Assembly (NCBI GenBank): GCA_000697475.1
Contig: JNEU01000711.1
Location: 1 to 64,000, forward strand
Length of the DNA: 64,000 nucleotides
Reading direction: 5' to 3'
Source: Lichtheimia corymbifera B2541
Lineage: Eukaryota; Mucoromycota; Mucoromycetes; Mucorales; Lichtheimiaceae
This document shows, piece after piece, positions 39,710-48,490 of the stretch. The notes beneath the pieces were generated by a model. The model was not told where the DNA came from, searched no databases, and saw nothing but the letters and a program-made list of their open reading frames with translations. Every line of letters starts with the position of its first letter. Position 1 is the first letter of the stretch. Made by a program: the position numbers and the translations under genes.

Positions 39710-41184
39710 TTAGGCAATGCCTTCCTTCTTCTTTACGATGTCTATACATATAACACGTATGAATAAGCATTGGTATTTGGTATCTTCCCTTAAATCATAG
39801 ATACATACCAAAATAAGGATGCGCCATGGCCTCTTGGGCTGTTAGTCGTTCTTGATGATCGTATCGCAAAAGATGATCCAAAAAGTCCATTGCTTCATCC
39901 GAGACGAAGCGATGATTATCACTGGTGATGAATTTTGACCATGGCTTGCGTGGATATCTAGGGGAGGAGGGAGCGTAACAATCAGCATTCTTTTTCCTTG
40001 ATGACTCATTTCCCCCTTTTCCTCACCTTCCAAGAATATCGTGATATTGCTGATCGAGTTCTATATCGTACTTGTCCAAGTATGCAAAGAGCTCATCTGT
40101 TCCTAATACCCGAGCAATCTTGACCAATTGATCATAGTTGTCATGTCCATGGAAGAAAGGTTCTTTGCGGAAGATCTAATAGATGGATCAATATTCTTTG
40201 CCGCTTGCACACGCCTCGCTACTATCTCCTCATGTACTTACCATGCTAGCAAACATGCACCCATAACTCCACATATCCAAGCTGTAATCATATTCTTGAA
40301 AATCGACAAGTAGTTCAGGACCCTTAAAGTAGCGTGATGCGACACGGACATTGTACTCGGTCCCAGGATGATAGAATTCAGCAAGACCCCAATCGATCAG
40401 CCGTAACTATATCATGCAATGTGTATTAGTTTTATGTCCCATGATTGAATGTGATCCTGTCCATCCTTACCTGACGTTTTTCATGGTCGATCATCACGTT
40501 ATGCGGCTTCACGTCACGATGCATGATTCCCCGTGAATGGCAAAAGTCAAGAGCCTAATCTCTCACATTTGTTGGAAAACCATATCATGGATGGGCCCCC
40601 CTTTCCCTTTCATACCTTGAGTAGCTCATACATATAGAATCGAATATCGTAATCGACAAATCGTGGATAAAGAATCTTGAAGTCCGTATTGTTGACATAC
40701 TCGGAGATCAGAGCTGGTGTCTTGGACTAGATGATGATGATACCATGGTTATCGCTTGGCAACATATGAGCGCTCTATACTCCAACCTACCTGAGGATCC
40801 CTCACGACGTCCAACAAACCAACTACGTTGGGTCCACCCGCAAGATTCTGGAGGATCTTGATCTCACGTTTGATTTTCTTCTTCTTGACGGGCTTGAGCA
40901 CCTTAATGACACACTTTTCCCCATTTGTAATGTTGATGCCTTCGAACACTTCTGAATATTTGCCACGGCCAACTTTGCGTATGATTTCATAGTTGTCTTG
41001 AAGTCTAAAAAAGAGTATTGGTTCAATAAAGGATATCTCCAAATTTGCCACCCCAACCATGTTCCGAATGGACTTACCCCCATTGCACTTGAAGATTGTC
41101 GTAATCTGAATAGCTGGGAGGCATCTTGGCATTGGCGTCGACGTAACATCGTGCCACACTTGTGAACGGGGTGTTCGTGGACAT
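39710..41184 (-). CDS. CKA1: Casein kinase 2 catalytic subunit alpha
   Basis: Acidophilic Ser/Thr kinase, cytosolic and nuclear. The start [20 protein letters not shown] is at 41184. Exon 1 ends VQWG and joins [20 protein letters not shown] (Gly loop) after a ~65 bp intron. CK2 hallmarks follow: basic helix [38 protein letters not shown] catalytic loop, DWG instead of DFG in [27 protein letters not shown] and [18 protein letters not shown] short last exon gives [15 protein letters not shown], stop at 39710. There are about nine exons. All catalytic residues are present. Confidence 0.96.
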
Positions 41185-41417
41185 TGGACTGAAATGGAAC
41201 CGAGTGTACGAGCAATTCTATAGGAGACGAATAAGGATGAGAACTTTTATATTCTTGGCGGACTTTACATACTTTCAGCTCTGCATAGCGATGATGCTGT
41301 TAGCCTGGTTCCTCAATCCGGCTTGTTAGCAAATAAGCTAAGACCAAGCTACCTACCACGGCAAAAGACCCAACAGAGTCTCTGCCATGGTAAGTGATGA
41401 TGGAAATGACCGAAATG

Positions 41418-41592
41418 TCAAGAAGTTAGCGATAAACCGGTATAATACTCATAAGAATTCCTTACGTTGCAATGAATCAGCGCTCTATCCAAGCACACCT
41501 CGACCACCAAACAGCCAAACATGCGAACATCAGTTGGGGTAACAACGATATCAAACAACTGACTGAAGGTTATGGACAAGGTGGCAACCATG
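41418..41592 (-). CDS. Possible small protein gene, 3' end unresolved
   Basis: From ATG 41592 the frame reads MVATLSITFSQLFDIVVTPT then DVRMFGCLVVEVCLDRALIHCN. A TATA-like element TATATAAGGG at 41675-41666 and a pyrimidine-rich leader precede it. A GTAAGG donor follows HCN at about 41465, with a CTAAC branch-like site downstream, so one or more small exons between 41465 and 41280 are likely; no join was decisive. Read unspliced, the frame stops at 41418. The product would be a small hydrophobic protein of 50-80 residues. I do not recognise the family, and the start and TATA are the main support. Confidence 0.35.
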
Positions 41593-41665
41593 GTATCAAC
41601 TTGGGGAAAAGAAAGAGAGAAGATAAAAAGTGATACTTTGAGAAATGAAAGCAATAAATCGAAGC

Positions 41666-41675
41666 CCTTATATAT
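41666..41675 (-). promoter_or_regulatory. TATA-like element
   Basis: TATATAAGGG on the minus strand, about 75 bp upstream of ATG 41592 of the possible small gene, followed by CT-rich leader. The match to the TATA consensus is good, but its use is inferred from position alone. Confidence 0.4.
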
Positions 41676-42269
41676 TAGATTCAGTCAGGGAGAGGCGATG
41701 CTCAATCGATACAGCTTTCATTTCAACCGGATTTTGGCATTGTGCGCAATGTAATCTCATTGGTCAAATCTCTCAAAGGGATCTTGTGGCAATCTTGTGG
41801 CAAACAAGACCCTATAGTCGGTATTTGCCTTTTTCTAACGAACAAATGCAGCTGACAACCAATCTTTTTATTGTTTGCAAGGAAACTGATCATGCTTCTG
41901 GATAACAATTTATCAAGGCCAGATCTTGTTTTAGATGTAGACATAGGGCTTTTGAGAAGCCATTTCCTTTTACGTTTTCCGTACAACAAATACTGCAGTT
42001 GGATGCTACGCATCAATCCGGACTATAACCATATTTGGCGAACAAATGCAAATGTAGGCGATACCTTTGGGAATCATAAAACAATCTACAACTCTTACGG
42101 GTCATATACAGGTGTATGCAAACAAACCAATCACCCTCCTACAGGTAATAAACCTGAGCTTATTCCACACGATATTCAAATTGATCAAGTAATTCTTCCT
42201 TTACCCTCCTATCTCTCTCCCTCTCTGCAAACGAATCACCCTTACACATAACATCCCTGTTGTTTCTCA

Positions 42270-45200
42270 ATGGCATATCCACTAAGGCTCGATGATCTCG
42301 TCCCTCGTGTCGAACGGTTTCCCGATGAGCAAGATATTACTCCAGAAAATCCATTTCCAGCACGCAGAGCACCTGCGAGATGTACGTACGTTACCCGAAG
42401 TTGTAAACTCAGAGGAATTCTACAGGATGATTTCAAGTATTTGGTGGTAAGGAATAGACGTCGTGATGAAAAGTCGTATCATAACTTGAATGTTGTAAAG
42501 GATGATTTTCGCCGGGTTGCAGAAGATTTCCAAGTACTGCGGCGTGATGCTTTACTCCTTGCCAATCTACATATCAGGCGGTTATGTGAATTACGTGTAG
42601 ACAACGGCAACGTAATCAATGGCGACATCGTACCGGACTTATTAACGCTGGCATTCTGGCGTCATTGCCTAGAACTTGTGGCATCTCCGTATCCAGGGAC
42701 GAGTCGTTTTACTAGAGTAAATGTTATAAATGGTACACCTTATCGATTATTCTGTTCTAATGACTGGATTGAAAGTTCCATGCAGAAGAATGGCATCAGC
42801 AGCTAGTCGTGACCTTCAATAATCACTACAATCCTTGTCGCCGCTATGACAGTAAGAAGATACTGGTATCACTATAAGGAATATATCTAAAACTTTACTT
42901 TAGATACTATGCAAATCGACCGGTATGACATACCATCGTATACATCTTTGGTACAGTATATCGTGGCAGATACATTCACAACGAGCGCTATCACAAGTAA
43001 GCATTATTTACCCAAATCATTTCGAGAAGAGTAACCATAACCATTACTATGGCCATAGACGCAAAGCAACACCTGTGTGGGAATGTACTCATTTATATGA
43101 AGAGATCTTGGGAAGCATTGTTCCTCCATGTCCATCCGAACCAGCTGCCTAGAAAGCCATCTGCATTAGGTATTCATAATACCTATAACAAAAGACTATT
43201 ACTGACCACTATGAATGATTAATAGCAACCATGGCAACACATGCAATCAAACATCATCTTGAGTTTGATAACGCCTTCGATTGGCTACAAAATCTACCTG
43301 AGAATGTGGTGAATCAAGCTGAACAATTCTACAAGTAAGTGTGATATATAATATCATCGCATTGGTATTCAAATTACATAGCCTTATTCTACCACGCTAC
43401 ATTCAAATTGTTCCCCCTGCCATGAATTTGGAGGATCTGGAAGATGAGGCTCTCGATCGAATCACCGTGATGCGGATAATGGATCTGTCGTTTATCATGC
43501 TTCGTCAGGCAGAAACTCATCCATTGGCAAAGAAGTGGTCTATCCTACCATTAGCGAAGCATCAAATTGGTAATCTCCTGAGTCAAATACAAGAGACGGT
43601 ACGCTTATAGGGTTATAACATATAGGCTTTGTTGAATACGACACGGAAGGATTGTTCAAGTTTTTCAAGTTACTGTATGGCCAAACAGGTTCACATAATC
43701 TGATCCCTCGGCCTATGATGGTAAGAGAAGGTACACTGAAGGAAAACGGACCCACCTCATTATTATCCATGTTACTAGAGTATCATTGGCCAAATGCATA
43801 ACAGAACAGCATACATGATGCATATGGATGATTACGGGAATCAAGAGCAGCTATGGAATCAACTATTCCAACTGAACAAGATTGCGCCATTTGATAACAG
43901 GCGCTCATTTAGTCGAACAAGTAAGTGCTATAACACCACATGGTAACATGGAAAATGCTGTCGTTACTCAACAAGCGGTATATAGTTGATGAAAACCGAG
44001 CCATAAAGCCATTCGGATTTGCATTTGCCATGCAGACCGATGGACACAGTGCGCGTTTTCGGTTTAAGATCCGTCGTGTCGGTGAGTGTCTGAATACATT
44101 GAAGGATTTGCGTTGAGGTTATTAATCATTTTATCGATTAGAGCAATACCCCTCCACGAAGAAGGAATTTTGGATGTTGACACCAGGAGGAAACATGTCA
44201 GGATCTTACCTTGGAAGAGGGATATATCACACCAACAAAAACCCTACCCATTTGAATGATGGGATACTTGCCAATGCCCGCGTAGTTGGCATCGATCCTG
44301 GTAAGGGAAAATAAAATGAAAAGACATACAGCAAGACTGACACCTTTCTTTGATAGGAATTCGTGATTTATTCACCGCGGTATCAACAAGCAACGGGGAA
44401 CAGTTATCCCGTGACAATAGAAAGGTTGATGGTACCATAACAACAATTTCGAACCGCGAATACCAGTAAGTGAACGATGCATGATAAAGGACGTACATAA
44501 AAACATCATTAAATAGAGAAAGGTCGGGATTTCAAGATTCGTTACGAACCGAACTCAAGGCGCGGGAGCATTCTGGCATACAAACATCATACAATGAGCT
44601 CACGATGAATCCTCCAACTGTCAGCTCTGTGCAAAGTTTCCAGCAACATATACGAGCCATAGCCCGTGTACATGACGAGTGAGTGTTCCTAAATGGCAAG
44701 TAGCCAAGGCGTTAATCAAATTAAATTACTAGTATACACGGATTCAATATCCGATACCGCCATCGCGAACGGCGAGAACGGAACCTAGCAAGACGCCAAT
44801 CAACATTGGATACATTGGCTATCAGTATATCAAGATCAGTTCCTCGGGTAAAGATATGATTTCACCAAGCAATGAAGTAATGTACTTAATCGCATAACAA
44901 ACAGGGAAAGCTACCAAGAAAGCATGCATCAAAAAGAGAACGCAGACGTATACGACGATCGGCTCGACGGTCAGCACAATTACAGCAATATGAAGATCTA
45001 CTCAAGGAGCAACTCAATGCACAGCATCAACAAACACTACAGCAAATGCAAGAAAACGGTCAACAACTAAATCAACAGCTTCATCAACAACAAGCTATGT
45101 TAGACGCTCTCGCATATCAGCAACGAGTTATCCAAAACCGGAGACATGATGCCATCCAACAAGGAAACCAGCTCCTTGCACAAATGGAACAAAATCATTT

Positions 45201-46113
45201 GCAAGCTCTTTGGGTTGCGTATCAGGATGAATTAGTTGCAACGAACCAACAACATCTTGAGCAACGAGTACAATTGAGACAGGAACATGAGAACCAGAGG
45301 CAAATCATGCAAGCAGAACAACTACAACAGCAACAACAATTCATTCAACAACAATTCATTCAACAACAACAGCAACCACCTCCTACCATCATATCCTATG
45401 GAGATGCCGATTTACGTGGTACAATGCGTGGGCATGCACCTCTCCCAACAAAGGTATATCATACAATTTATGATCGTTATCCTCGCAGCTTTCTCACAAT
45501 GTCAATAAGACCTTCAGACAATACTTGGCGAAATACTGTCTTGTGATGTGCGTTGACGAGTTTAACACATCACAAATTTGCTCGCAATGCGACAATCGAC
45601 TTGTCAATATTGTAGAAAATTACTATCGATGCAATCATAGGTAATGTGCATAGCATTTCCGTTACATCGCCTCTTACAGAAAAACACCTTCAACTTTAGA
45701 ACCAAAGTCTTCAATATTACATTCAGAAACCACCATCGTCGTATACGATATTGTCTAAACGATGCGGGTGAACGTATGAATAGGACATCCGAATGCCAAC
45801 AAGCGCTTGCTGCAGGTAACAAGAGAAAGAGAAAAAGCAATAAAAACCATGCCATTCACCACCAATATAATAGATCCCATTCCCAAGCAAATATGGCCTT
45901 TGAAGGTGTGCACGAATTGTATAAGCGTCCATCCGAGAGCGGGTTCCAACAGGCCACTTGTAGGTGTATTTCATTGGTACTAAGCTTCAGGAGCTAATTG
46001 TTTTAAAGATTGTGAACAGGGATATCAACGCCGCTGCGAACATGCATAGGATTTTAACCCAGTACATCGAAAACGGGGAGAGACCATTGGCGCTCTCAAG
46101 GGCAAACACGTAA
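42270..46113 (+). CDS. Fanzor (eukaryotic TnpB-like RNA-guided nuclease)
   Basis: Seventeen exons, all phases closing, 970 residues: 42270-42716, 42776-42851, 42904-42996, 43059-43169, 43226-43334, 43382-43569, 43626-43730, 43810-43920, 43986-44081, 44142-44300, 44357-44465, 44517-44678, 44733-44847, 44905-45453, 45489-45640, 45727-45963 and 46020-46113. The N-terminal region has FQVLRRDALLLANLHIRRLC, as in TnpB/Fanzor wedge regions. RuvC-I is VVGIDPG^IRDLFTAV (Asp ~497). YGDADLRGTMRGHAPLPTK (~792-810) is the RuvC-II block without the usual Glu. VDEFNTSQICSQC (~832-844) begins the zinc finger and supplies the candidate alternative Glu834. RuvC-III is RDINAAANM (Asp ~941). Odd points: a ~130-residue Gln-rich coiled insert (~650-785) and ~70 extra residues between the second zinc half and RuvC-III. 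No recombinase was found beside it. All expected catalytic acids are present, so it is plausibly active. Confidence 0.92.
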
Positions 46114-46260
46114 AGACCGAGACAACGCCATATAGCTTATACGTCTACATATATAAATACTCTTGTCATGTGATTATGTTTTGAGGGTCATTCTCCCAGT
46201 CGGTGGTTTTAAAAATGTTTATTTCCCTGTGGAGATCTTTTACTTTAGCTTCAAAACGAA

Positions 46261-47466
46261 ATGAGCAACCAGTCATCAACTCCAATTGACGAAGACATTG
46301 ACCCTCGTACCCATTTGCTAATAGCGTTGGGTTATATTGACAATGGCGAGGTAAAAATTTTCTTTCTTTATCACAAGGAAACTGAAATACGTTATACAGC
46401 ATGGTGACTATATTAGAAGGCATACTAGTCTGAATTCGGTAAAGAATATCATGCAGAACGTCTGCCTCAATGCGTTAATCTTTGAATGTTATTCCTTCAG
46501 GTACCACCAGCACATCTTGAGCTGTTTATGAGAAGCAACCGGAACCTGGCAAGATATGGTGAAGAAACAAGCCCATCACCTTCCGCTCAGCTGTCCATGT
46601 CAAGTCGAGGTCATCCTCATCCACAACAACAACAACAGCAGCAACCACTTGCAGGAGCACCTATGGGTTTTGCCAATCAACCAGAAGACGAGGAAACCGT
46701 TGATGAAATGGAAGAACGAATGCGTCGTACAATGATGATCCCATTCATCATGTACTCAGGGGTTAATGAACACAACAAGCAATTGTTACGGCATCGAATG
46801 GGTCAAAGTGATTTGGAAATGATGGAAGTCGACGACATAGCCAACAGTTTCAACTCCGTCACGCACATCATCGCGTCTATCAATAACAGGCGCCGCTGTG
46901 AGCGAACCAGCGAATACCTGTGTGGTCTCCTACAAGGAAAGTGGATTATCGACGAGACATGTATGAAAAATATTCTTAATACAGGGCATGCTTTAGATAA
47001 GAGGCTTATTGTATATAACAGGGATTACCGATAGCTGTGACCGAGGATATTGGTTACCAGAAGAGCCTTACATTGTACACGGGGATACTGATAGCGAACA
47101 CATCGGTGCGCCTATGCGTGCACATCGGGCATTGGTTGAAGGAAGGGTATAAAAGACTAACATTGATGATTGTAACGATTTTATATATACTAAACATATA
47201 GATAGGCATTACCTTTCAATGGCTTATATTTCTACTTGCATGGTAGCTTTAGAGGGCATATACAAATGAGAGACATTACACTTCTTTGCGAAATGGGAGG
47301 AGGAACCGTGGTTGATCACCCTCACGTGGAACGGTGCGTGGCAATAATCAGCAACGGAAATGAGCATATAGCTACCATAAGAGACTTAAATCCTTATGCT
47401 CAAATACGGACTGTTGAATGGCTCATAGACACTATCAGTAGAGGCATTGGTAGAGGTCCTCCTTAA
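46261..47466 (+). CDS. Tandem-BRCT protein, BARD1/BRCA1-like C-terminus
   Basis: Five exons closing in phase to 324 residues: 46261-46350, 46400-46438, 46501-46960, 47022-47146 and 47206-47466. The N-terminal ~120 residues are disordered with a Gln run and a PEDEETVDEMEERMRR helix. BRCT1 contains FNSVTHIIASI, SEYLCGLLQGKW and, across the exon 3/4 join, IIDETWITDSCDRGYWLPEE. The linker YIVHGDTDSEHIGAPMRAHR resembles the BARD1 inter-BRCT segment. BRCT2 contains FNGLYFYLHGSFRG, LLCEMGGGTVVD and IRTVEWLIDTI (the conserved Trp). No RING or ankyrin repeats are present, unlike full BARD1. Tandem BRCTs usually read phospho-proteins at DNA breaks. The gene starts 147 bp after the Fanzor stop on the same strand. 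Confidence 0.82.
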
Positions 47467-47668
47467 GATTGAATTAAATATGTAGCATGTTGTATTAAAA
47501 TATTGTTTATTTCATGGGGTACACAGACATATTGTCCTGCTGCTGTTGTAAAGCCCGTTAATCGACAGCACTTGTATTGTAGATCCAATGCTATACATAC
47601 CAATGAATCTCCAAAGGAAAGGGGCTATACTTGACGATGAATGCCTTGAGCAATAGATAAACCTTGAT

Positions 47669-48490
47669 AGCACCAAAAAGACACATGGACATCATTGCTT
47701 GCTGCTGATATGATACACCCGTAAAAGACATGCGCTGCTGAATGCACTTGAAACCAATTGGCCAACAATGAAAACCACCAGAGAATCGAGTAAATGTCGC
47801 TGCCAATAAAAACCGGGACTCTGCTGCTCATTTCTGCGTCTTGCTTGTTGCTGATATGACCCACCGATAATACACATGCGTAGCAGGATATCCATCAAAG
47901 AATTGGCGACCGTTAGATGACCTTAGTAGCGCCGAAGATGTTGACGCTGGCTCTCATTGCTTGTTCATGACATGGTCCATCCATAAGGCACGTTGAGTTG
48001 TAGAGATCCATCAAAGGAATTGCCAATAACCCGAACCACCAAGAGATTGAGCGTTTGCTGACACCAAAGATATACAAGCTGCCCCTTGCTGCTGATGTGA
48101 TCAATCGATAAGAGACCGTCATTTCAGGATGCCCACCGAATTGCGCGTAACGAGAAGCACCAGATGATGAGATAAAGCTTGAGATGACACCAACGATATG
48201 GATGCTGTTGCTTGTTGCTGATACAATCCATCCACAAGAGACGTGCATTGCCTGACACCCTTCAGAGAAATCGCCCGTTGCTTGGTGACCAACAACCAGA
48301 AACGGAATAAAGATTGACGGCACCAAAAGATATAAACGCTTTTCTTCCTTATGGCTGGCATGGCTCACCTACATATTAAAGATGCACGGTAAACGAAGTT
48401 TTCCAATCCCACCCAACACTTAGCAATCGCACAGATGTGATCTTGTAAACTTGAAGACACCAAAAGACAAGTAGCTCCCTGCAGTGGTCC
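47669..48490. repeat. Degenerate ~130 bp tandem repeat
   Basis: About seven diverged units. Recurring landmarks CACCAAAAGATAT-like then TTGCTTGTTGCTGATA..ATCCATCCA are near 47669, ~47800, 47932, 48061, 48188, 48321 and 48459, spacing 127-138 bp. On the minus strand two units are near 126 bp and stay in one frame (47913-48368), giving repeated TSA..S.HI/YIFG.S-like peptides, but other units are out of frame. I do not call a gene. It could be a decayed coding repeat or satellite. Confidence 0.65.

Follow-up and report, generated by a model that had tools for sequence, protein, structure and literature searches.

A predicted intron-rich Fanzor1-type nuclease gene without recognisable transposon ends in Lichtheimia corymbifera, in a genome with mobile relatives

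The stretch of DNA analysed here (hereafter referred to as the window) consists of 64,000 nucleotides of contig JNEU01000711.1 from Lichtheimia corymbifera B2541 and carries, on its + strand, a gene of the Fanzor1 type. Fanzors, the eukaryotic relatives of TnpB and CRISPR-Cas12, cut DNA under the guidance of RNA and have been described chiefly as cargo of transposons. The whole gene lies within the window, between an ATG at position 42270 and a stop codon ending at 46113, as proposed in a preliminary description of the sequence. The model, predicted from the DNA sequence alone, has 18 exons and 17 introns and encodes 954 amino acids with no internal stop codon. Exons 1-6 (42270-42716, 42800-42851, 42904-42996, 43059-43169, 43226-43334 and 43382-43569), 7-12 (43626-43720, 43779-43920, 43986-44081, 44142-44300, 44357-44465 and 44517-44678) and 13-18 (44733-44847, 44905-45453, 45510-45640, 45700-45815, 45874-45959 and 46009-46113) were delimited by consensus splice sites and the open frame, with support from the introns of a paralog. 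Ab initio splicing alone was insufficient, and the 3' exons were set by hand, with guidance from motifs. The preliminary description had given 970 residues and 17 exons; the intact spliced protein and the presence of all its signature strings in one frame were recovered in the rebuilt model, but these counts were not, and the 954-residue, 18-exon model was preferred because most of its boundaries agree with those of a paralog. We consider it probable that this is an intact nuclease gene of the Fanzor1 lineage, derived from an intron-rich mobile lineage and immobile in cis, which is either stranded or kept by the host.

All 17 introns have GT-AG borders and are 47-83 nt long. Thirteen of them have a length that is not a multiple of three, and the remaining four hold in-frame stop codons. 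Retention of any single intron other than intron 16 leads to a stop by residue 927 or sooner, whereas retention of intron 16 leaves the frame open through 952 residues, but shifted, with loss of the CTNC and NRD motifs described below. GC content was 0.445 in the exons and 0.342 in the introns. The same genome (35 Mb, 432 contigs) contains a related Fanzor family (contigs C174, C278, C412 and others) with 27-31% protein identity to the window protein, the C174 paralog being 31% identical. Twelve of the 17 window introns had a C174 intron of equal phase no more than three alignment columns away, against a chance expectation of 0.59 on average and 5 at most in 5,000 random placements. Intron 1 kept its phase, with a displacement of four columns relative to C174 and of two relative to C412, and introns 2 and 17 probably match too, their positions being shifted by alignment gaps. 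Introns 6 and 16 had no counterpart, and the C174 intron at its residue 59 was not present in the window gene. The models of C174 and the other paralogs were guided by the window protein, so this comparison is not fully independent; introns are, however, also required for open frames in the paralog models. The intron-rich architecture, judged by these positions, is most likely old and common to the window gene and its paralogs, and it supports the splice model.

A fingerprint of Fanzors has been described by Yoon et al. (PMC10711439), in which RuvC-I contains a DPG and a Glu lies six residues upstream of the zinc finger; these authors also describe TDG, located in the WED domain, as a characteristic motif of Fanzor1. 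In the window protein, the DPG occurs within GIDPG, at the predicted first catalytic Asp, D496 (44294..44296, +), which is conserved in the C174, C278 and C412 models. The canonical RuvC-II Glu is absent, there being no Glu in TIISYGDADLRG, and the predicted alternative catalytic Glu (Ealt) is E826 (45558..45560, +) in VDEFNTSQIC, with six residues (FNTSQI) between it and the first zinc-finger Cys, C833. The zinc finger is a split C4 finger, formed by CSQC (residues 833-836) and CTNC (904-907) and with two introns between the halves (45579..45920, +); it is followed, in the order expected of a Fanzor, by the RD at 924-925, of which D925 (46021..46023, +), in NRDINAAANM, is the predicted third catalytic Asp. 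The TDG motif of the Fanzor1 subgroup was found at residues 430-432 (44036..44044, +), its placement in the WED domain of this protein being assumed. The preliminary description had called the gene a Fanzor, which agrees with both the DPG and the Ealt fingerprints, and had reported a missing Glu in the YGD block and a displaced one. Both were found; the distance, which it had put at about 42 residues, is 35 from Tyr791 of YGD to E826.

Profile searches with the C-terminal part of the family were consistent with this assignment. A profile built from the window protein, C278, C174 and C362 (another Fanzor of the same genome) retrieved PpFz1 of Parasitella parasitica (PDB 9cf0-9cf3) as the first PDB match (E 2.7e-6), followed by Cas12m (4.1e-4) and SpuFz1 of Spizellomyces punctatus (PDB 8gkh; 0.003). 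After removal of C362, PpFz1 was still the top PDB match (E 0.0073), with SpuFz1 at 0.7. A direct hhalign comparison of the profile including C362 with the C-terminal fragment of SpuFz1 gave an E-value of 8.2e-9, and the window protein and SpuFz1 both have a C-terminal RP..SR tail. PpFz1 resembles the window protein in its DEFRTS..C motif, and SpuFz1 in its D-E-D layout with Ealt (PMC10432273); the spacing from lid to Glu is 34 residues in the window protein and, in SpuFz1, 36 with the numbering derived from our alignment or 35 with the published E541 (PMC10432273). On the basis of these motifs, including TDG, the profile matches and the shared introns, membership of Fanzor1 appears near certain. 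In other searches, PADLOC returned weak Cas12f/Cas12u4 matches, a search of NCBIfam gave nothing useful, Rfam and tRNA scans of the window found none, and none of the 37 pattern matches of profile A2 in viral contigs was confirmed.

The window protein differs from the paralogs by a Gln-rich insertion of 133 amino acids (residues 651-783; 44977..45375, +; 37% Gln) within exon 14, just ahead of the RuvC strand that leads into the lid, with no counterpart in C174 or C278. Both introns bordering exon 14 are shared with C174, in which the exon measures 198 nt rather than 549 nt; an existing exon therefore grew and no exon was added. The alignment to SpuFz1, with the numbering derived from it, placed the end of the insertion about eight residues ahead of the lid (506-522), which gates the active site in SpuFz1 (PMC11423790). 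AlphaFold2 modelling of exon 14 alone, from a single sequence, yielded a single uninterrupted helix that spans exon residues 10 to 155 (mean pLDDT 87, pTM 0.43). A proven coiled coil was rejected and the insertion is described as helical only, because 27% of 300 shuffles reached its score in the heptad test, which thus lacked significance. A single helix of 146 residues would set its ends about 20 nm apart, and a hairpin or flexible arm is therefore more likely, as a reading of this model, than one continuous helix. PpFz1 also has a large RuvC insertion, called FRI, of about 100 amino acids, described as a small domain with three helices, three beta-sheets and a loop, and reported only for Parasitella and Rhizopus (PMC11423790), which like Lichtheimia belong to the Mucorales. 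The two insertions differ in sequence type and in structure, that of the window insertion being predicted. FRI binds cyclophilin (PMC11423790), and a protein-binding role for the Gln-rich insertion is therefore plausible by analogy, although its sequence type differs; placed beside the lid, the insertion would most likely serve as a protein-binding or oligomerising arm outside the catalytic core. Such an arm would also offer a natural way to examine how Fanzors are regulated or tethered by insertions in RuvC, of which the FRI of PpFz1 is an example.

A large expansion next to the lid could also mark a decaying relic, intact in appearance but neither expressed nor active. We regard this explanation as improbable: at 27-31% identity to its relatives, the gene has accumulated no stop codon or frameshift in 954 codons, its 17 introns keep consensus borders, and the catalytic triad and the zinc-finger cysteines have all been kept.

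The paralogs present a different picture at the DNA level. The right end of the family was GGTGCAAATAGTAAAGCCCC at all five ends examined (C19, C109, C278, C174 and C67, with one base differing in C67), and the flanking DNA beyond it differed at each of the five. A diverged inverted copy of this end was present at the left end of C412; left ends were seen in two of the three contigs examined (C412 and C279), and not in C124 within the 71 bases fetched. A 9-bp flank, AGCAGCCAC, was common to C279 (left) and C109 (right), and C412 (left) and C19 (right) had the flank AAAATGGG in common over 8 bp, or 9 bp with one mismatch. These matching flanks are read as putative target-site duplications (TSDs) of elements split by the assembly. 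C278, C19 and C109 are 99.9% identical over their common 1.8 kb, and C412 is 99% identical to C278; such near-identical copies therefore point to recent movement. As judged from its ends and flanks, the paralog family is mobile in this genome, in MuDR-like elements with terminal inverted repeats (TIRs). Fanzor1 elements of the MuDR type that bear TIRs and have TSDs of 9 bp are described from Rhizopus, Phycomyces and Mucor (PMC3627910), and the Lichtheimia family is like the Mucorales elements ROr-4, PBl-3 and MCi-4 of that report in having TIRs and TSDs of 8-9 bp and no obvious transposase open reading frame (ORF) upstream of the gene. The region of about 1.45 kb upstream of the C412 gene contained no long frame, the longest stretch from stop to stop being 157 aa. 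C174 carries an in-frame stop, and C67, C252 and C432 yielded partial models only. A tandem repeat of about 85 bp lies immediately upstream of the C174 Fanzor start codon (L031:2540-2811).

No features of this kind were recognised at the window gene, which in this respect is unlike ROr-4, PBl-3 and MCi-4 as described (PMC3627910). No second copy of the gene was found in the 35 Mb, either by DNA or as a close protein match. In the flanks (40600-42269 and 46114-48100), inverted ends with 9-bp TSDs scored no better than in 25 Markov shuffles: the best TIR score was 10, with a null mean of 11.5, and the best score for a TIR with a 9-bp TSD was 13.0, with a null mean of 13.3. The null was made for 9-bp duplications only, and the scores for 8 and 10 bp (11.5 and 14.0) are given without a null of their own. 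The terminal motif of the family did not occur anywhere in the window when as many as three mismatches were allowed. A covariance model made for the 3' end of the family recovered five of the five family right ends, three of which had been built into it; it found no match in the window and, with filters off around the gene, its best score was 4.6 bits (E 0.98), and the 147-bp spacer between the window gene and the next gene (46114..46260, +) was likewise without a match. The window gene was therefore rejected as a copy of the mobile family, given the lack of a DNA paralog and of a common 3' end, and the mobile gene that the preliminary description had offered as one option was not supported for this single copy with no recognisable transposon ends.

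The window gene could still be an ordinary Fanzor transposon copy with unseen ends, as a recent single arrival or as part of a TIR-less type of element. Fanzor1s are typically transposon cargo (PMC3627910), and a dispersed repeat some 2.8 kb long starts 80 bp past the end of the next gene. The absence of a second copy in the genome, TIR and TSD scores within the range of shuffles, and a BRCT gene only 147 bp after the stop codon make this explanation somewhat unlikely. The repeat itself (47546 to about 50386) was rejected as a terminus of a Fanzor element and is read as a repeat family of its own: it occurs at dozens of genome sites, with at least 124 matches among the best 40 of 82 candidates in one search and at least 81 among the best 40 of 631 in another, and it contains internal tandem units of about 125 bp and inverted parts. 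Copies of it also lie near the fusion genes described at the end of this text, at a distance of 1.4 kb from the one on C364 and 6.7 kb from the one on C281.

Fanzor guide RNAs are usually encoded near the 3' end of the nuclease's own gene (PMC10432273, PMC11423790). The fold of 46114-46264 was no more stable than those of shuffled sequences (z +0.89; 168 of 200 shuffles folded at least as well). The 3' end of a paralog, used as a control, was also no better than its shuffles (z -0.33), and the fold test is thus without power. RNAalifold, on three sequences only, gave a slightly unfavourable covariation term (+1.12). Recognition of a guide RNA by folding was rejected, as neither the window spacer nor the paralog 3' end exceeded shuffles.

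Several results weigh against the interpretation of the window gene as an intact Fanzor1 gene immobile in cis. According to the spacing published in 2013 by Bao and Jurka (PMC3627910), D-X(125,275)-[TS][TS]-XX-[C4 ZF]-X(5,50)-RD, the distance from D to TS should be 125-275 residues, and it is 332 in the window protein. Because of the 133-aa insertion the range is exceeded; without it the distance is 199, which is in range, and the insertion-free paralogs have 216 and 218. The 2013 spacing describes the proteins then known, and more weight was given to the 2023 fingerprint. The window protein alone matched PF07282 with an E-value of 4e-4 and 20.9 bits, below the curated cut-off of 26.3; the profile match foreseen in the preliminary description is thus present, but not above the cut-off, which paralog C278 exceeds (27.9 bits). 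A phmmer search of the PDB with the window protein alone found no Fanzor, and the full-length family profile A1 retrieved weak TnpB/Cas12-type chains (best 0.021) and no Fanzor. Protein searches contained no relative among 7,995 scored candidates for the window protein and 7,992 for alignment A1, and therefore provided no independent ortholog. The search for ends was aimed at elements with TIRs and TSDs, types without TIRs (e.g., Helitrons) being outside its scope, and neither the 3'-end model nor the fold tests identified a guide RNA at the window gene.

What the window gene would do, and how it came to its present position, can be outlined from the family and from the locus. Family knowledge from SpuFz1, PpFz1 and GtFz1 comprises a guide RNA, cutting of double-stranded DNA and a single RuvC site (PMC10432273, PMC11423790). 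By analogy with these family members, the window Fanzor would be guided by RNA and would cleave DNA: its REC/WED lobe would bind an omega/reRNA guide and its zinc-finger domain the target, and a single RuvC site composed of D496, E826 and D925 would cut double-stranded DNA next to a short motif. From the locus, we infer descent from a mobile lineage and loss of mobility in cis; the gene would descend from an intron-rich lineage that is still moving in MuDR-like elements, would no longer be movable in cis and would survive either as an old copy left stranded or as a gene kept by the host.

The latter outcome could be taken further, to a captured gene that selection retains for some function in the cell and whose Gln-rich arm would provide a new surface for interactions. 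Defence against elements would be one such function, and a programmed break dealt with jointly with the neighbouring BRCT repair gene another. Host domestication accords with the single copy, the intact frame and catalytic residues and the lack of TIRs and TSDs, with the in-frame stop in the related C174 and the partial models of C67, C252 and C432, and with the BRCT gene 147 bp away. The codon usage of the window gene is host-like, with a mean difference in relative synonymous codon usage (RSCU) from the host of 0.085; the mobile C278, however, is at least as host-like (0.066), and the window gene, the mobile copy and host genes could not be told apart by their codon usage. The adjacency of the BRCT gene may be due to chance. 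We consider domestication a doubtful explanation, as we do the particular functions named. The full version, in which a Fanzor off its transposon, with a helical Gln-rich arm at the lid, now works in the cell as a fixed gene, perhaps jointly with the BRCT gene, appears quite unlikely. No domesticated Fanzor was evident in the listed titles and abstracts of the open-licence literature on Fanzor. An intact single-copy gene without recognisable ends, beside mobile relatives with clear ends, provides a direct contrast within one genome, in which a fixed and a mobile copy can be compared for selection, guide RNA and expression.

That Mucorales have Fanzor1 genes, that Fanzors can bear introns (Chlamydomonas) and that RuvC can carry insertions (PpFz1) was already known; the combination of 17 introns, a lid-side Gln-rich insertion and no recognisable ends, amid mobile relatives, is new. 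SpuFz1 (SPu-1) is a protein of about 640 aa and the product of a single ORF, and the element that carries it has TIRs of 33 bp (PMC3627910), whereas the window protein has 954 aa, 17 introns in its gene, a RuvC insertion and no recognisable TIRs. The Chlamydomonas Fanzor1 genes CRe-1 to 3 are Helitron-borne and have five and ten exons (PMC3627910); the window gene is like them in bearing introns and unlike them in having 18 exons.

The gene following the Fanzor on the same strand, 147 bp past its stop codon, is a predicted five-exon gene (46261..47466, +) encoding a tandem-BRCT protein of the BRCA1/BARD1 type. It matched the Pfam families BRCT_2 (2.2e-7) and BRCT (7.5e-6), both over the cut-off, and BRCA1 (2.5e-8) and BARD1 (3.4e-5) in the PDB. 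A search with the BRCT protein outside the window found only C88 and, weakly, C349. C88 contains a degraded 414-bp copy of the 3' part of the gene, 78% identical, and the 2.3 kb fetched from this contig contained neither Fanzor nor kinase sequence; the BRCT gene was thus rejected as a co-traveller of the Fanzor. Upstream of the Fanzor, the - strand carries an exon that belongs to a protein kinase gene (Pfam Pkinase, 1.1e-10), which we take to be casein kinase II alpha, and the dispersed repeat is followed by a gene for a USP7-type ubiquitin hydrolase.

The searches also revealed a second type of gene, predicted to encode XPG-TnpB-like fusions. The gene on contig C364 (L035:2217-7085, +) has three introns and encodes one intact protein of 1,566 aa; a paralog was found on C281 (L037:1370-5844), for which no ab initio splice model was obtained, and the 3' part of a third on C312 (L034:1979-2878, -). 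The N-terminal region is XPG/FEN1-like, with all Pfam matches below the cut-off (XPG_I 4.8e-4 in C364; XPG_N 6e-4 and XPG_I 9e-5 in C281) and no PDB nuclease match. The C-terminus is a TnpB/Fanzor-like RuvC with a zinc finger and a PF07282 match over the cut-off; it has Ealt in RIDEYLSSKTC, but DIG instead of DPG. A dual-nuclease fusion is possible on this domain evidence, and no literature pairing Fanzor and XPG was found among open-licence papers. In a six-frame search, five loci exceeded the cut-off for the TNB family, the window gene and the C174/C278 family not being among them. The genome holds several distinct Fanzor/TnpB-like lineages: C363 (L033), C362 (L036), the C312/C364/C281 fusions, the C174/C278 family and the window gene. 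Relatives of the fusion RuvC were a metagenome protein (70% identity) and Apophysomyces proteins (42-43%).

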